From Halostella salina (lineage in GTDB: Archaea > Halobacteriota > Halobacteria > Halobacteriales > Natronoarchaeaceae), in assembly GCF_003675855.1 (NCBI RefSeq), contig NZ_RCIH01000003.1:310001-374000 (forward strand): 64,000 bases of DNA, given 5' to 3'. Of this stretch, positions 17,435 to 24,870 are shown in pieces. Both the position numbers and the translations under genes were made by a program. Within the stretch, counting starts at the first letter, position 1, and every line of letters begins with the position of its first letter. The notes beneath the pieces are model-generated. The model worked only from the letters and a program-made list of their open reading frames with translations, was not told the origin of the DNA and did no database searches.

Positions 17435-18202
17435 TCAGTCCCGGATCCGGACGATCCCGTTCTCCAGCACGCGGCTGTTGGGGACGATGAACTCCTCCTC
17501 GTCGTTCTCGATGTGCGTGACGAACACGTCGACCTCCTGAACGATCCCCTCGTGGTCGCCGATCCGGACGCTATCGCCGATGCCGTACGGCTGGTTCAGG
17601 AGGAGATACACCCCCGCCGCACCGGACGCGAGGAAGTCCTTGAACGCGAGGCCGCCGAGGAACACGAGGGCGAACGCGTACACCGCGAGCAAGACGATCA
17701 GCGCGTCGGTGTTGACGCCGATCTGGTCTAACGCGACCAGCGAGGCGATGTAGAGGACGCTGTACTTGATCACCCGCGGTAGAAGCCCGACCTCCGGGAG
17801 CTTGATCCCGCGGAGGCGCTCGCTGGCCATCAGTTCGGCCTTGTCGGCGACGACGAAGCCGACGACCAGTACCAGGGCGGCGATGAACAGCCGGGGGACG
17901 AACTCCGTCACGCGCAGCCAGAACCGCTCGGCGCTGAACAGCTGGGCGATGTGGACCGCCGTCAGCAGGGCGACGCCGTACACGAACCACGAGGAGAGCC
18001 GCGCGACGATGGTGACCGTCGAGGTGCCGAGGCTCTGTGCGGTTCGCTCGAACGGCGTCCCCTCCACCGACTCCGGGATCCCCGCGGCGGTGAGCAGTCG
18101 CTTGTTGAGCTTGCCGACGAGGTAGCCAAGCAGGATGCCGACCGCGAGCACCGCCGCGGCCAGCGCTGCCGGCTGGTTCGTGACGAGGCTCCACTCCACC
18201 AT
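17435..18202 (-). CDS. MscS-family mechanosensitive channel protein
   Basis: A 255-residue membrane protein with about four to five helices. The pore-lining TM3-like segment and following beta domain (SGAAGVYLLLNQPYGIGDSVRIGDHEGIVQEVDVF, then IVPNSRVLENGI) define MscS. It lacks the long C-terminal cage, so it is a short form. Its start overlaps the dacZ stop by one base (TGATG), so it is co-translated with the c-di-AMP synthase. This links turgor release with c-di-AMP signalling. Confidence 0.88.
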   Translation of the reverse strand: MVEWSLVTNQPAALAAAVLAVGILLGYLVGKLNKRLLTAAGIPESVEGTPFERTAQSLGTSTVTIVARLSSWFVYGVALLTAVHIAQLFSAERFWLRVTEFVPRLFIAALVLVVGFVVADKAELMASERLRGIKLPEVGLLPRVIKYSVLYIASLVALDQIGVNTDALIVLLAVYAFALVFLGGLAFKDFLASGAAGVYLLLNQPYGIGDSVRIGDHEGIVQEVDVFVTHIENDEEEFIVPNSRVLENGIVRIRD

Positions 18203-19014
18203 CAGTAGTCCTCCGGGTCCAGTTCGAGCACCAGTTCACCCGCCTTGAACGCCCGCACGAGGCCGTCGCTCTCGCTCAACACGATGGCGGTGGCGTTCGT
18301 GTCCCGGGTGACCGCGCCCGCGGCCATGTGCCGCGTGCCCAGCCCCTTCGGGATGTCGACGCCCTCCGCGGAGGGTTCGAGGTAGCGATACGCCGAGACG
18401 ATCTTGCCGGAGTCGCTGATGACGAACGCCCCGTCGAGCCGGGAGAACTCCTTCAGCATCACGTTGACGATGGGGTCGCCGACGTGGACGTGGGACTTCT
18501 CGAAGGGGTTGTACGAGAGCGGCCGGGACTTGTTCATCACCTTCCCGGCGTCGCCGACGACGAACAGCGCGCCGACGGGCTTGCCCTTCTGCCCTTTCTT
18601 CCCCAGTTCGATCACCAGTTCCAGCACGGACCGGATGACGCTCGGTTCGGCCCGCGACTCCGAGAACAGCCCGTAAACCCCCGACGACATCGACTCGTCG
18701 ACGCGGATGCGGGAGACCGTGTCGATCTCGTCGGCGAACACGCCCAGCGCGCAGGCGACCACGTCGCCGTCCTCGACGTAGCCCGCGTCGAACGCCCCTT
18801 CGATACCGAAGCGGATCCGGTCGACCACGTCGTCGAACTGTAGCGGGAGTTCGACGAACTCGTCCGCGCCGTGGTCGTTCTCGCCGGCCACCACGATGAT
18901 GGGGTGTTCGGCGTTTTCGGTCACCTCCTCGTAGTAGGACCCGCTGGGCGAGAACAGCAGTATCGCGTCCACCGACGGGACCAGCTCCGCAAACAACTCG
19001 CTTGCCTCGGCCAT
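18202..19014 (-). CDS. dacZ: Diadenylate cyclase DacZ
   Basis: A 270-residue archaeal diadenylate cyclase making c-di-AMP from two ATP. The DisA_N catalytic domain is C-terminal (about residues 115-260), with the DGA motif at 194-196 (RLDGAFVIS) and the RHR-type motif as GTRHMAAG at 226-233. The ATG at 19012-19014 is preferred over a TTG four codons upstream. A T-rich element lies about 28 bases upstream. DacZ is known in Haloferax volcanii, where c-di-AMP level affects osmotic fitness. Here it heads an operon with mscS. Confidence 0.92.
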   Translation of the reverse strand: MAEASELFAELVPSVDAILLFSPSGSYYEEVTENAEHPIIVVAGENDHGADEFVELPLQFDDVVDRIRFGIEGAFDAGYVEDGDVVACALGVFADEIDTVSRIRVDESMSSGVYGLFSESRAEPSVIRSVLELVIELGKKGQKGKPVGALFVVGDAGKVMNKSRPLSYNPFEKSHVHVGDPIVNVMLKEFSRLDGAFVISDSGKIVSAYRYLEPSAEGVDIPKGLGTRHMAAGAVTRDTNATAIVLSESDGLVRAFKAGELVLELDPEDY

Positions 19015-19077
19015 TGTGCAAGGCAACTCCCGCCCGACGAAAAAGGTTTGCGTCGCGTGAGACGTGTCCGCGGTGGT

Positions 19078-19938
19078 TCAGCCCATCTCCGGGGTAACCG
19101 TCGCATCGACGAGGCGACCGAGCGGAGCCTCGACGGCGTACCCCGGTGTCTCGACGCGGATGGGGGAGTCGCGGTCGACGTCGACGAACCGGAGCGTCAT
19201 GCTGAACCGGCCGTCGTCGCCGATGGTCGTCGCCTCGCGCTGGCCGGTCGGCTCGTGCCGCGCCCACGCCGTCTCGCCGGCGAACCGAGCGTCGGCTTGG
19301 CCGCTGACGACGTGGCCGAACGGCGTCTCCGAGAGGTTCGTCCCGGCCATCGCGTAGTCCCGGCCGTGCCACTCCCAGAACCCCTCGTCGATGACGTACA
19401 CTTCCTCGTAGCCGCCGTCGATGAGCGACGCCGCCCGGATCGACGAGAGGTGGTGCGGACAGCCGCAGTAGCAGACGATCCGGTCGCCCTCGGGCCACTC
19501 GACGACGGGGTCGCCGTCGGTGCCGCCGCGACCGGCCGGACTCAGGACCGCGCCGTAGACGTGTGAGGTGTCGTACTGCTTCCGGCCGCGGGCGTCGACC
19601 ATGCGTGCCTCGCCCCGCCGGTACCAGTAGTTGGCCACGTCGATCGGTGCCAGCGGCACCTCGACGCCGTCGCGGTCCACCGTTCCGAACGACGACGTGT
19701 CGACCTCGCGCTCGTCGGGGACCTCGTCGAACTCGGGCGGATAGCCGTCGGTCGGGTCCTCGTCCGGCGGGAACTCGCCGTTCGTGTCGTAGTCGGCCGT
19801 CGCCGTCCCGGTCGCCGGGCCCCCGCTCGTCTCGGTCGCTGTGCGCTCCGTGGTGCCGTCGCCCGACCCGTTGGAGCCGAGACAGCCGGCGAGTGCGGCC
19901 GTCGCCGCGACGCTCGCGAGGTAGGTTCGTCGGTTCAT
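19078..19938 (-). CDS. Tat-exported rhodanese-like lipoprotein
   Basis: A 286-residue secreted protein. MNRRTYLASVAATAALAGC is a twin-arginine signal with a lipobox (LAGC, Cys19), followed by a Ser/Thr/Gly-rich linker. Residues about 90-195 form a rhodanese domain (MVDARGRKQYDTSHVYGA, then IVCYCGCPHHLSS, in which the catalytic loop carries several Cys). A strand-rich C-terminal domain follows. It is the last gene of a four-gene operon of exported proteins, 26 bases after the Dyp-like gene. A sulfur-transfer or metal-thiol role outside the membrane is inferred. Confidence 0.82.
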   Translation of the reverse strand: MNRRTYLASVAATAALAGCLGSNGSGDGTTERTATETSGGPATGTATADYDTNGEFPPDEDPTDGYPPEFDEVPDEREVDTSSFGTVDRDGVEVPLAPIDVANYWYRRGEARMVDARGRKQYDTSHVYGAVLSPAGRGGTDGDPVVEWPEGDRIVCYCGCPHHLSSIRAASLIDGGYEEVYVIDEGFWEWHGRDYAMAGTNLSETPFGHVVSGQADARFAGETAWARHEPTGQREATTIGDDGRFSMTLRFVDVDRDSPIRVETPGYAVEAPLGRLVDATVTPEMG

Positions 19939-19964
19939 ATGTGGTGGTTGGGACGCATCCGGTA

Positions 19965-21284
19965 TCAGGATTCGCTCCCCGGACGGGGCGTCGGCAGCGC
20001 GCGGTGTCGCCGCGGCGGCACGAGGAAGTTGCCGCGGTTGTTGACGAAGATGTACTCCAGGATGCCGTTGTTCACGCGCTGTTTGACCGCCGGGCTGTCG
20101 ATGTCGCTCCCGTTCATCGCCTCGCGCACCCGTTCGAACTGCTCGATGTCGCGCTGCAGCGTCGGGAAGTGGAGGCTGGCCACGTCGTCGTCGGTCGACT
20201 CGAAGTGCCGGCGCAGCAGGAGGACGTTGCCGTCCTCGTCGCGGTTCGCGCGGGCCGCCTTCTGGGCGTGGCCGACGCGGCTGAACTCGCGGGCGTGCTC
20301 CTCCACGCTCTCCATCATCTCCTCGGTGACCCCGCTGTGGTCCCCGAGGTTGTGACCCGCGCCCTCGACCATCCCCTCCTCGGCGTGGACGGGGCTGAAC
20401 ATCTCCATCACGCGGTCCTCGTAGTTCTGCTCGACGTACCAGTCCGCGAGGCGCTGGCGGATGTTGGCGACGTGTTTCGTCGTCCCACCCGCGAACGGCC
20501 CCTCGTCGATGGTGACGTAGTCCTCGCTGGCCTGATTGCCGGCGAACCCGGCGGTAAAGCCCATGAACAGCGGCGACTCCTCCGGTACGGGGTTCCCGTC
20601 GGGGATGCCGCTCACGTCCTGTCGTTCGGCCGGCATCCCGTCGCCGATGAACCCGGTCCGGCGGTCGTCGACCGTCATCGCGTCGGTCAGCGGCGTCTCA
20701 ACCGCCGTGCCGTTGGCCTCGACGTTGCCCCGGAGCGCCTCGTCGGCCTCCAGCACCACGTCGGCGCGGTCGCTTGCCAGATGCAGGAGCGCGTCCTGCG
20801 TGTCCAGTTCCGGCTCCTCGAACGCCGAGAGCCGCCGGGGCTCCGGCAGGTTCACGTTCTCCGGGAGGTCCTCGTCGAACCGGTCGAAGTACGCCGGCGA
20901 GTAGGCGACCGAGTGGATCAGCCCCTCGTTCGACCGCTCGTACGCGCGGTCCAGCGTCGCCAGCGCGCTCTCGACCGTCGTCCGTGCCTCGTCGCTCGGC
21001 GGGCCGGACCCGTCGAGCGTCAGGTACAGCAACACCTGATGCCGCGGGAGGACGGTGTTGCCGTGCTCGTCCCGCGGGATCAGGTCGTTCCAGCCGTGCT
21101 GGCGGTCGGGGAGCGACGAGGGATCCTCGACCCCCTCGGGGACCGGGCCGCCGGTCGTCGGCGTCGTCGATCCCTCGCTGTCGCCGTCGTCGGCGTCGAG
21201 ACAGGCGCTCAGGGCGCTCACTCCGCCGGCGGCGACCGCCGCCTTCAGGAATTCGCGCCGCGACTGGTCGGGGGAGGGTTTCAT
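19965..21284 (-). CDS. Tat-exported Dyp-type peroxidase-like protein (DUF7405-like)
   Basis: A 439-residue exported protein. The signal is QSRREFLKAAVAAGGVSALSAC (twin arginine and lipobox). Dyp/EfeB-like landmarks are visible: GPFAGGTTKHVANIRQRLADWY, the probable heme-proximal His in RVGHAQKAARAN, and LLLRRHFESTDDD followed by LHFPTLQRDIEQF. The canonical GxxDG distal motif is not obvious (GIPDGNP is the nearest). It follows the DUF7282 gene by 55 bases. The match suggests heme binding or ferrous oxidation, as in EfeB. Assignment is from motif reading only. Confidence 0.65.
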   Translation of the reverse strand: MKPSPDQSRREFLKAAVAAGGVSALSACLDADDGDSEGSTTPTTGGPVPEGVEDPSSLPDRQHGWNDLIPRDEHGNTVLPRHQVLLYLTLDGSGPPSDEARTTVESALATLDRAYERSNEGLIHSVAYSPAYFDRFDEDLPENVNLPEPRRLSAFEEPELDTQDALLHLASDRADVVLEADEALRGNVEANGTAVETPLTDAMTVDDRRTGFIGDGMPAERQDVSGIPDGNPVPEESPLFMGFTAGFAGNQASEDYVTIDEGPFAGGTTKHVANIRQRLADWYVEQNYEDRVMEMFSPVHAEEGMVEGAGHNLGDHSGVTEEMMESVEEHAREFSRVGHAQKAARANRDEDGNVLLLRRHFESTDDDVASLHFPTLQRDIEQFERVREAMNGSDIDSPAVKQRVNNGILEYIFVNNRGNFLVPPRRHRALPTPRPGSES

Positions 21285-21339
21285 CGTCCCACCGTTGGGA
21301 CCCCCCGGAAATGGGGGTTCTGGTGTGGCTCTCGAACGG

Positions 21340-22338
21340 TCATCCGTCCCCCCGTCGGCGGGCGGCCAGCAGCGCGCCGGCGGCGACCGCCGCCAGCGTC
21401 CCGACGACGCCGACCGCGGGCATGCTCGTCTCCCCGTCGCCTGACGCCGTGGTCGTCGTGGTGGTCGAGTCGCCCGGCGCGGCGGTCGTCGTCGGCGTCG
21501 CCGTCGCGGTGTTGACACCGACGTTGAGTCCGCCGGTGCCGCCGTCCGTCCCGTTCTCGCCGAGCGTCGCGGCGACGCGGGACTGGACCGGCGTTCCGCC
21601 GACGCGAACCGGCTCGTCGCTCTCACGGTCGAACTCGCCGTCGCCGTCGTCGCGGTACACGGTCACCCACAGCGACACGCGGCTGTCGTTACCGGGCAGG
21701 CGGCTTCGATTGACCGGGACCGTCACGTTCTCGTGGGCACCGGCAGCCAGCGACGTGCTGCCGACCACCTCGCCCGGGGCACCGGTCTCCTCGTCGCTCC
21801 GCCTGACGACGAGGTGCCCGTCCTCGGCCAGCTGGGCGTTCGGCACCGTCAGCGAGTCGGCGACGGTGTGACCAGACAGCGACATCGCCACGACGGTGAC
21901 CGACCCGTCACCCTGCCTGACGGCGAACTCGTCCGCGGCGAGGGTGCCGAGGCTGAACAGGGTCGAGTCCGTCTCGGGATCGAACTCGTCGCCGTCCTCG
22001 GCGTCGTCGTGGAGCACCGCTACCAGCGACGTGTTGCCGGACGTCGACTCCCACCAGGACTGGTCGACGGCGACGGCGACGTTGCGGTGATAGCCGGACG
22101 TGAGCTTTCGGTGGCCGACGACCTCGCCGGGGTCGCCGCCGTCGCTCTCGTGGATCGCCACGTACCCGTCCTCCAGCAGGAACAGTTGCTCGACGACCAC
22201 GCTCCCGTCGCCCGACACCTGCGCCCTCGCGGTGAGGTGGTTGCCGTGGCCGCCCGCCGGGGCGACTACTGGGCCGGCAAGCGGCGCGACCACGGCGATG
22301 GCGAGCAGGGTCGCCACGGCGCGACGCCGTCCGGTCAT
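21340..22338 (-). CDS. Surface-anchored DUF7282-repeat protein
   Basis: A 332-residue exported protein. An N-terminal signal (ATLLAIAVVAPLAGPVVA) leads into two homologous domains. Each has the pattern VVEQLFLLEDGYVAIHES...GEVVGHRKL and LTVPNAQLAEDGHLVVRRS...GEVVGSTSL, as in haloarchaeal DUF7282. A Thr-rich spacer and a C-terminal hydrophobic helix followed by RRR give a surface anchor similar to, but not exactly, PGF-CTERM. Its start overlaps the P19-like gene by ATGA, so the two are coupled. Confidence 0.75.
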   Translation of the reverse strand: MTGRRRAVATLLAIAVVAPLAGPVVAPAGGHGNHLTARAQVSGDGSVVVEQLFLLEDGYVAIHESDGGDPGEVVGHRKLTSGYHRNVAVAVDQSWWESTSGNTSLVAVLHDDAEDGDEFDPETDSTLFSLGTLAADEFAVRQGDGSVTVVAMSLSGHTVADSLTVPNAQLAEDGHLVVRRSDEETGAPGEVVGSTSLAAGAHENVTVPVNRSRLPGNDSRVSLWVTVYRDDGDGEFDRESDEPVRVGGTPVQSRVAATLGENGTDGGTGGLNVGVNTATATPTTTAAPGDSTTTTTTASGDGETSMPAVGVVGTLAAVAAGALLAARRRGDG

Positions 22339-23417
22339 AGCTGGATATCGACGCTCGGCGTGCCGATAAACGCCGTCTCGTACCCCTGGTGGCGGGCCAC
22401 CTGTGGCGGCACGTCCACGGACAGCGTCAGCGTATCGCCCGACTCGACGCCGTCGACCAGCGCGCCGTAGTGGTAGTCGAGTTCGGGGTCGAGCGTCCGC
22501 TCGAACGCGCCCTCGTACACGGGCTCCCCGTCGCGTTCGACCGTGCCGGACAGCCCCATCTCGGGCACCAGCAGCGCGTTGTACCGCGTCCGGGCCGAGA
22601 CCGCGACGTAGGTGCCGTCGCCGAAGCGGTCGTCGGACAGCGTCGTGACGACGTACCGCACGCCGTCGGCGCGCGACTCCCCGCGGACCGTCCCCGGCAG
22701 GTCCTCGGGAGCGGCCGCGCGGCCGAGCGGCACCATGTCCATGTCCATCGGCTTGACCGCCCCCGGCTCCCCGGCGGCGTCGATTTCCTGTGTCGTCAAC
22801 TGCTCGCGCTTCCGGTCGTTCAGTTCGAGCGGAACGGTCGCGCTCGCCGGCTCACCGAACTGTCCCTCGAACACCCCTGTGCGACGCGTCGACATTCCGC
22901 CGACGCTGACCGTCACGTCGTACGTCCCGTTCCCGTCGAGTTCGAAGTTCGCGCCGTAGTGGAACCCCATCCGCTGTGAGAACATCGGGTAGATGACCTC
23001 CTCGGAGACCAGGTCGCCACCCTTCGTGATCTCGACGGACAGCCCCGTGTCCGGGAGCACGGTCCCCGTCTCGGGGTCCCACACCGACGCCATCAGGTGC
23101 ATCGTCTGCTCGTTGGTCCGTGGATGTTCGGAGCGCTCGGTCCCCGTCACCGTCCAGAACTGGTGGGGGAACGTGTAGAACACGCCGAACCGGTAGTCGC
23201 CGTCCGACGCGGTACCGGCCATCAACATGTTCTCCACGAACGGCTGGACGTAGATTCCCCGGGGGGAGGACCCCTGTCCGTCCGCCGTCGTATCCGTGGT
23301 CGTTTCGGCCGTTCCGGTCGTCGTGTCGGTGTTCGTCGAGTCGCCGTCGTCGCCGCCGAGACAGCCGGCGAGGAGGGGAACCGATGCGCCCGCAGCGAGG
23401 AACCTTCGGCGTTTCAT
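22335..23417 (-). CDS. P19/Tp34-like metal-binding lipoprotein (tandem domains)
   Basis: A 360-residue Tat lipoprotein (KRRRFLAAGASVPLLAGC, Cys19) with a Thr-rich spacer. Residues about 55-180 resemble periplasmic iron-transport proteins of the P19/Tp34 family: a DPETGTVLPD loop, the metal-like segment PMFSQRMGFHYGANFEL (Met and His, HYGAN at 153-157) and GTYDVTVSV. A second, diverged copy (about 240-350) holds DYHYGAL at 314-320 and ARHQGYETAF at 341-350. In bacteria such proteins bind Cu/Fe beside FetM/EfeU permeases. None is present here. First gene of the operon, with a T-rich TATA element 27-30 bases upstream. Confidence 0.72.
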   Translation of the reverse strand: MKRRRFLAAGASVPLLAGCLGGDDGDSTNTDTTTGTAETTTDTTADGQGSSPRGIYVQPFVENMLMAGTASDGDYRFGVFYTFPHQFWTVTGTERSEHPRTNEQTMHLMASVWDPETGTVLPDTGLSVEITKGGDLVSEEVIYPMFSQRMGFHYGANFELDGNGTYDVTVSVGGMSTRRTGVFEGQFGEPASATVPLELNDRKREQLTTQEIDAAGEPGAVKPMDMDMVPLGRAAAPEDLPGTVRGESRADGVRYVVTTLSDDRFGDGTYVAVSARTRYNALLVPEMGLSGTVERDGEPVYEGAFERTLDPELDYHYGALVDGVESGDTLTLSVDVPPQVARHQGYETAFIGTPSVDIQL

Positions 23418-23532
23418 CTACCCGGGCTTGGGGTCGTACCAACAAAAAATCACGTCCTTCACGGGGTCGTCTCGGCCGCTGCGACTGGTCCTGTAGCACA
23501 CATTTATATCGTTCGGTCGGCAACTGGTACGT

Positions 23533-24870
23533 ATGAACCAGTCGAGACGTACGTTCCTGCAAGCGAGCGGCGCGGCCGCCCTCCTCGGCCTGTCGGGCTG
23601 TACCGGCGTGCTCGAAGGCGACGAGGGGATCGGCGACGCCGGCCCGCCGGGCTTCACGTCGTGGGTGTACGACCCGAGGGACCTCCTCGGCGTCGAGACC
23701 CGGGGCTTCGCGACGTACGACATCGAGAGCGTCCTCGCACAGCGTGACTCCCTCCCCCAGGACCCCTTCGAGGGGCTGGAACAGGCAAACGAGAACATCG
23801 ACGAAGTCGACCTAGAGGAGTTCTCCCGGCTGACGATGGTCGGCGGGAGCACGCTCAACGCCGACAACCCCGAGGCCGGCGGGTCGGCCGTCCTCGAAGG
23901 CTCCTTCGACGTGGAGACGATCACGGAGGAGATAGAGTCCCAGTCCACCGGCGTCCAGTACCAGACCGGCTCCTACGAGGGGTACGAACTGTACTACGGC
24001 TCGCAGGAAAACGAGTTCCAGGGGACGACGAACTCCTTTGCCTTCGCGATCAACGAGGAGAACGTCGTCGTCGGCGGGTCGAACTCCGACGCGATGAGCG
24101 GCCGCGGGGCGGTCGAGGCGATGATCGACACCAGCCTCGGGGACCAGGCGCAGTACTACAACCGGAGCGACTACGCCGAACGGCTCGTCAACGAACTCGG
24201 CGACGCGACGATGCTGATCGGCGTCGAGTTCGACCTCGGCACGCTCATCCGTGACCAGGTGAACAACGACAGCGCCCGTCTGGTTCTCAGCGGCCTCGGC
24301 GCGGCCGGCATGGCCGGAACGATCGAGGGCGAGACCGCCACCAACGAGATCCTGCTCGTGTACGAGGAGGACGCCGAGGTGCCCGAGGAGACCGCACAGG
24401 ACCTGCTCGACCGGGCCCGCGAGCAGTCCCCGACCGCCTTCGAGAACGTCGAGGACGTGAACATCTCCAGCGGCGACCGCACGCTCCGGTTCACGATGAC
24501 GGTCGACACCCAGCAGCTGTGGGAGCAGAGCGGTCTCGGCCCGACCGCCGTCGCCGACACCGCCACCGAGAGCAACACTGCTACTGGGCCCCCGCGAGCG
24601 TCGTTCGAGATCGAGTGGTCGGACTACGACGAGAACCGGAAGGAAGCGACGATCACCCATCAGGGCGGCGACTCGATCGACGCCGATCGGCTCTCGCTGG
24701 AGGGCGACATCGAGGCGGAGGGTAGCTGGGTCAACACCAGCGACGGAAACGTCGTCGCCGGGTCGACCACCCAGGCCCTCGTCGAAGCCGGCGGCTACAT
24801 CGCCGTCGTCTGGACCAGCGCGAACGGCTCCACGTCGGCACAGCTGGCCGGCTCCTCGGCCCCGAACTGA
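23533..24870 (+). CDS. Tat lipoprotein with a pilin-type C-terminal domain
   Basis: A 445-residue exported protein, divergent from the P19-like operon. The signal is QSRRTFLQASGAAALLGLSGC (twin arginine, lipobox LSGC). The large central domain (about 40-330) is unrecognised and strand/helix mixed. Residues about 355-440 (FEIEWSDYDENRKEATIT..., HQGGDSIDADRLSL, IAVVWTSANGSTSAQLA) match the beta-sandwich of archaeal type IV pilins, but there is no pilin signal. A TTTATA element lies 27 bases upstream. The function is unknown; an adhesion or surface-assembly role is an inference. Confidence 0.7.
   Translation: MNQSRRTFLQASGAAALLGLSGCTGVLEGDEGIGDAGPPGFTSWVYDPRDLLGVETRGFATYDIESVLAQRDSLPQDPFEGLEQANENIDEVDLEEFSRLTMVGGSTLNADNPEAGGSAVLEGSFDVETITEEIESQSTGVQYQTGSYEGYELYYGSQENEFQGTTNSFAFAINEENVVVGGSNSDAMSGRGAVEAMIDTSLGDQAQYYNRSDYAERLVNELGDATMLIGVEFDLGTLIRDQVNNDSARLVLSGLGAAGMAGTIEGETATNEILLVYEEDAEVPEETAQDLLDRAREQSPTAFENVEDVNISSGDRTLRFTMTVDTQQLWEQSGLGPTAVADTATESNTATGPPRASFEIEWSDYDENRKEATITHQGGDSIDADRLSLEGDIEAEGSWVNTSDGNVVAGSTTQALVEAGGYIAVVWTSANGSTSAQLAGSSAPN

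Follow-up and report, generated by a model that had tools for sequence, protein, structure and literature searches.

An exported P19-type and DyP-fold protein pair of haloarchaea as a candidate surface copper/redox-handling module

The window analysed here, a stretch of 64,000 nucleotides from Halostella salina (genome in 17 contigs, 99% complete), carries an array of four minus-strand genes, A to D from upstream to downstream (Table 1). The open reading frames agree with the arrangement given in the preliminary description of this DNA: A and B overlap in an ATGA (22335-22338), B and C are separated by 55 bases (21285-21339), and C and D by 26 bases (19939-19964). All four products are predicted to be exported, as had been claimed, A and D as Tat lipoproteins with RR and a lipobox, and B with a signal at its N-terminus and a hydrophobic anchor at its C-terminus; the claim has to be amended for C, which is a Tat lipoprotein and not a plain Tat substrate, as the lipobox cysteine C28 is kept in 98% of 80 homologues.

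Table 1. Positions of the array genes, of promoter-like elements and of flanking genes in the window
Feature	Position	Strand	Description
dacZ (diadenylate cyclase), then mscS-type channel gene	17435-19026	-	Same strand, downstream of the array
Gene D, rhodanese	19078-19938	-	286 aa; PF00581, E 2e-8
Gene C, DUF7405	19965-21284	-	439 aa from the ATG at 21284; Pfam E 3e-167
Promoter-position box ACCAGAACCCCCATT	21310-21324	-	B-C gap; first base 40 nt before the C start codon; matrix score 24.6
Gene B, two DUF7282 stretches	21340-22338	-	332 aa; PF23951, E 6e-33
Gene A, DUF7350	22335-23417	-	360 aa; Pfam DUF7350 and Iron_transport (PF10634)
TATA-like ATATAAAT	23502-23509	-	Within the 115 bases separating A from the divergent gene; read from the sequence
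Divergent Tat lipoprotein gene	23533-24870	+	445 aa

The complete A-B-C-D order is found in three genomes only, the window genome and two congeners (L077 and L176), and as these congeners keep the same order at the same site, the array goes beyond a chance assembly. The C-A pair recurs across the class, whereas the full order was found within one genus only. A conserved promoter-position box in the B-C gap leaves room for two transcription units, A-B and C-D, with the TATA-like element as a possible promoter of A-B. The divergent Tat lipoprotein gene, which has its 115-base upstream region in common with A, is kept in L176, where the dacZ and mscS-type pair also adjoins the array.

The AlphaFold model of A (mean pLDDT 87) displays a P19/FetP fold at residues of about 61-208, as the preliminary description had proposed, followed by a degenerate P19-like domain at about 236-360. 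All 27 Foldseek matches below 0.001 belong to the P19 family, and among the matches listed by VIA the first domain reaches Z 13-14.5 against P19, FetP, FtrA, Tp34 and HftA (FetP: Z 14.5, rmsd 2.4 over 135 residues). On the sequence level, the profile of A recognizes FtrA (E 4e-7) and PF10634 is matched at 6e-6, and databases attach the label 'iron transporter' to A; the single sequence of A searched against the PDB gave nothing useful. The two domains of A align with each other by hhalign (97%, E 1.1e-10) with HYG placed on HYG, while the profile of domain 2 found no relative among solved structures. DUF7350 proteins thereby look like tandem P19 domains of which the second is degenerate. A paralogue of A resides on contig 2 of the window genome.

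In P19, a copper site is situated about 7 Å from an acidic patch of Glu3, Glu44, Asp46 and Asp92 that holds manganese as an iron mimic (PMC9174327). The copper-type residues H107, M145 and H153 of A align with those of FtrA and are invariant in 64 of 64 homologues, as are M109, M150 and, in domain 2, H343. In the same FtrA alignment, M109 and M150 occupy the positions of Glu44 and Asp92 of P19 in all 64 homologues, and position 111, equivalent to Asp46, is mostly Thr, Ser or Val; the P19-type acidic iron/manganese site is thus absent from A at these three equivalents. E62 is nevertheless a conserved acid. The presumed metal site of A looks softer and copper-type, and iron or heme acquisition as the function of the array is not favoured, in view of the replaced acidic residues and the retained histidines and methionines.

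The preliminary description had noted that a permease is not visible, and this observation extends well beyond the array. The FTR1/EfeU permease family (PF03239) gave no match in the window genome and none in 145 haloarchaeal genomes, with matches in the four known genomes used as positive controls, and neither an iron permease nor a heme transporter is found among the recurrent neighbours of the C-A pair. Ferrous-iron acquisition, with A as a FetP/P19-like protein whose copper cofactor oxidizes Fe2+, C as an EfeB-like partner and an unrelated permease in place of FTR1/EfeU, can invoke the P19 fold and PF10634 match of A, the occurrence of EfeB in the list of structures similar to C, and a DtxR/FeoA-type regulator together with a ZIP-like transporter in one island. 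We regard this explanation as rather unlikely, as FTR1 is missing from all 145 genomes, the acidic iron/manganese residues of P19 have given way to others in nearly every homologue of A, if not in all, and no iron permease recurs in the neighbourhood.

The DyP-like character ascribed to C is borne out by its AlphaFold model (mean pLDDT 90.5), which superimposes by VIA on DyP peroxidases including those of Sphingomonas and E. coli EfeB with Z 25-26 over about 300 residues (Foldseek 6e-17). A paralogue of C in its own genome scores above the cut-off for PF20628, and the Pfam model of the DyP C-terminal part matches in 14 of 59 haloarchaeal genomes at places which, where compared, fall inside DUF7405 genes. 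A search of the PDB with the single sequence of a C homologue gave nothing useful. Among solved structures, those nearest to C in sequence bear the label deferrochelatase, which together with the appearance of EfeB in the structural list speaks for heme capture or the release of iron from heme, in which C would be a deferrochelatase-like heme binder and A would take the iron. With the iron-site acids of A gone and no heme transporter among the recurrent neighbours, such a function appears highly improbable.

The resemblance of C to EfeB holds for the fold but not for the full catalytic set. Profile alignments to DyP chains locate the proximal His at H339 and the distal Arg at R358, each kept in 79 of 80 homologues; an initial reading that the distal Arg is lost was rejected on the basis of these alignments. 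The position of the distal Asp of the GXXDG motif, assigned to 245 (A245 in C) from motif reading rather than superposition, is mostly Ser or Ala and in none of the 80 homologues Asp. Two residues after the distal Arg, position 360 is Asp or His in 78 of 80 homologues, and it is a speculation that the acid/base has been relocated there. Outside the haloarchaea, a homologue with 36% identity and without an obvious export signal is encoded on a Streptomyces plasmid (L256:5998-7074); it carries Ser in place of the Asp, no P19-type gene is annotated next to it, and its presence indicates that the DUF7405 family is not strictly haloarchaeal.

C is probably heme-binding, and a loss of the distal Asp need not abolish peroxide chemistry. 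In DtpB of S. lividans, a variant of the Asp matches the wild type in forming Compound I, which without the Arg is formed slowly and is unstable (PMC8463360); since C keeps the Arg, a reaction with peroxide is still possible. These data also bear on an alternative assignment as a defence against peroxide or metal stress, with C as a surface peroxidase, A as its redox partner or a metal sponge and D in thiol repair. The retained proximal His and distal Arg in a DyP fold, the behaviour of the DtpB variant, the mobile islands with heavy-metal ATPases and DsbA/thioredoxin-like neighbours are in line with such a defence. On the other hand, the distal Asp missing in 80 of 80 homologues is important in other DyPs (PMC7611857), and the near-universal presence of the pair points to housekeeping more than to a resistance function, so that we consider a stress defence unlikely.

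With respect to the two remaining genes, the preliminary designation of B as a surface receptor found no support, and the feature that stands out is the predicted mature N-terminus HGNH. An H-x-[NQ]-H motif following a signal-peptidase-like site, with a predicted mature N-terminal His, is present in 10 of 10 DUF7282 proteins encoded beside A or C and absent in the 30 top-scoring DUF7282 loci elsewhere, a rough control in which several reads are cut or on the wrong strand. Since CopC binds copper through such a residue, the predicted N-terminal His of B as a copper ligand is a lead, though only a lead. B-type genes stand beside A or C in 8 of 84 loci from several families. D possesses a rhodanese domain with a putative active-site Cys in the loop VCYCGCPHH, and a YC-x-CPH loop is present in 10 of 10 homologues. 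Of 145 genomes, 59 encode homologues of D, mostly away from the array; in L177, which belongs to a different family, D adjoins A directly.

The core of the module and its true conserved unit is the pair of C and A. In a common set of 391 genomes from the class, DUF7405 is present in 346 and DUF7350 in 337, with both in 336, neither in 44, DUF7405 only in 10 and DUF7350 only in one, a co-occurrence with a Fisher value of 3e-47 that ignores kinship, the absences being clustered in one genus. The matches listed for a sample spanning the phylum all come from the same order. At 39 of 80 loci, C has a same-strand A within 400 bases, and at 52 of 80 within 4 kb in any arrangement; at 27 loci no A was found in the fetched stretch.

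A second tie between the two genes is a box, ACCAgAAcccnCTTT (also written ACCAGAAC), which emerged upstream of C genes as a k-mer excess; the weight matrix derived from it was trained solely on C genes. Scores of at least 10 are reached in 38 of 78 C upstream regions, with about 0.5 expected from the density in the loci. At 36-41 nt before the start codon the box occurs in 29 of 78 C genes and 21 of 60 A genes, compared with 6 of 953 other genes of the same loci (A versus other genes, p 9e-23); in L177 it precedes D and A separately. The six other genes include SCO1 and NosL with weak scores of 12.0 and 10.7. In about 0.9 Mb of the window genome, sites scoring at least 18 are located only before C of the window, which is part of the training set, and before the contig-2 paralogue of A, which is outside it; A of the window has no box at this score. 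The box may be a special core promoter, for which its position in the BRE/TATA region of leaderless transcripts would be fitting, a regulator site or both, and is a possible marker of a regulon. None of the papers listed by a literature search for the box contains its sequence, and a promoter box before C and A genes appears to be new.

Neighbour genes were counted as loci with a match less than 4 kb from C versus farther away. Enriched close to C are DUF7471 (18 versus 3), an HTH_HVO_0163-type regulator (18 versus 2), TM503, a membrane protein of 500 aa without a Pfam family (11 versus 6), and SCO1 (5 versus 0). A neighbour cluster of 22 loci initially taken as SCO1 was rejected as a read-through over masked bases that comprises mostly HTH_HVO_0163-type regulators. 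Equally discarded as a functional link were the UbiA and enoyl-CoA-hydratase-type genes beside the pair in one family (L124-L142), where C-A is followed by a cohesin-domain protein, as they look like local synteny. The TM503 homologue of the window genome (460 aa) is encoded directly after a coxC-like gene (L185:6646-9766), beside genes that we take, as with the other cox names from reading the sequences, to be coxB-like and ctaA/ctaB-like.

Members of the pair are also part of metal islands. In Salinigranum rubrum the pair is accompanied by a metal-dependent regulator, a multicopper oxidase, a metal transporter, plastocyanin, an HTH protein, TM503 and a P-type ATPase. On Haloferax mediterranei pHME505 (L257:7881-14020), DUF7350, a small protein, TM503, a heavy-metal P-type ATPase and HiPIP follow each other on one strand. 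An island of the order HTH, DUF7471, methyltransferase-like, C, A, A, TM503 and P-type ATPase is shared by five loci (L098, L105, L107, L117 and L260); these plasmid-borne islands are very similar across different families and probably mobile. The P-type ATPases of the metal islands carry CPCAFVIS, a motif of the Zn/Cd/Pb type and not the copper motif, which argues against a purely copper island. Similar clusters of multicopper oxidase, transmembrane protein and plastocyanin are induced in denitrifying H. mediterranei (PMC11218638).

Cumulatively, the interpretation of the array in the preliminary description is partly supported, and our preferred, still tentative explanation, to which we assign a probability of roughly 0.45, is a surface copper/redox-handling module rather than an iron import system. 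Copper is favoured by the loss of the iron-site acids, the abundance of Met in the site of A, the histidine of B and the links to SCO1 and cox genes. A would bind copper in its His/Met site outside the membrane, and C, which may still be peroxide-reactive through the distal Arg, would set or protect the copper redox state, so that copper could be buffered or handed to respiratory cuproenzymes; B would act as an accessory copper-binding surface protein and D as a sulfur or thiol-repair helper. The folds, the Tat and lipobox signals, the conservation of ligands, the co-occurrence and the shared promoter box were established by computation; the metal, the heme of C, the transfer of electrons or copper, the direction of flow and the roles of B and D are inferred. 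For copper count the P19 and DyP folds, the lack of FTR1 in the window genome and 145 relatives, the co-occurrence of C and A, their common box with its weaker counterparts at SCO1 and NosL, and TM503 after coxC. Against it count the CPCAFVIS ATPases, the 'iron transporter' label and the iron-transport family PF10634, the conserved E62, which could serve a harder metal, the low scores of the SCO1 and NosL boxes and genome counts that ignore kinship. A more elaborate version, a copper-redox regulon marked by the ACCAgAAcccnCTTT box in which C with its acid/base at position 360 oxidizes Cu(I) on the tandem-P19 protein A, assisted by the His-DUF7282 protein and the rhodanese, is doubtful.

Each member of the pair is present in about 86-88% of the sampled haloarchaeal genomes, and no mention of DUF7405 was found in the literature searched. 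If copper is the metal handled, the name 'iron transporter' misleads for a whole archaeal class. DyP enzymology is divided over which residue, Asp or Arg, drives the formation of Compound I, and DUF7405, with the Asp uniformly lost and the Arg kept, provides a natural test. The shared promoter box, moreover, makes the regulon directly accessible in haloarchaea that are amenable to genetics.

Among known systems, the P19/FetP/FtrA/Tp34 proteins with their FTR1-type permease (FetMP, P19-cFtr1, FtrABCD) resemble A in the fold of domain 1, the copper-type His/Met ligands and export, whereas A has a second P19-like domain, replaced iron-site acids and a lipid anchor, and is paired with a DyP-fold protein instead of an FTR1 partner. 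EfeB of the EfeUOB system is similar to C in fold, Tat export, proximal His and distal Arg; C differs in lacking the GXXDG distal Asp in 80 of 80 homologues, in its lipid anchor and in its P19-type partner, and EfeU is absent from the genomes tested. SCO1, NosL and CopC, compared for the proposed role and not for homology, have no Pfam match in A, B or C, for which a copper role is predicted, but share with them export, the copper-type ligands of A, the position of SCO1 as a neighbour and, in the case of CopC, the predicted N-terminal His of B.
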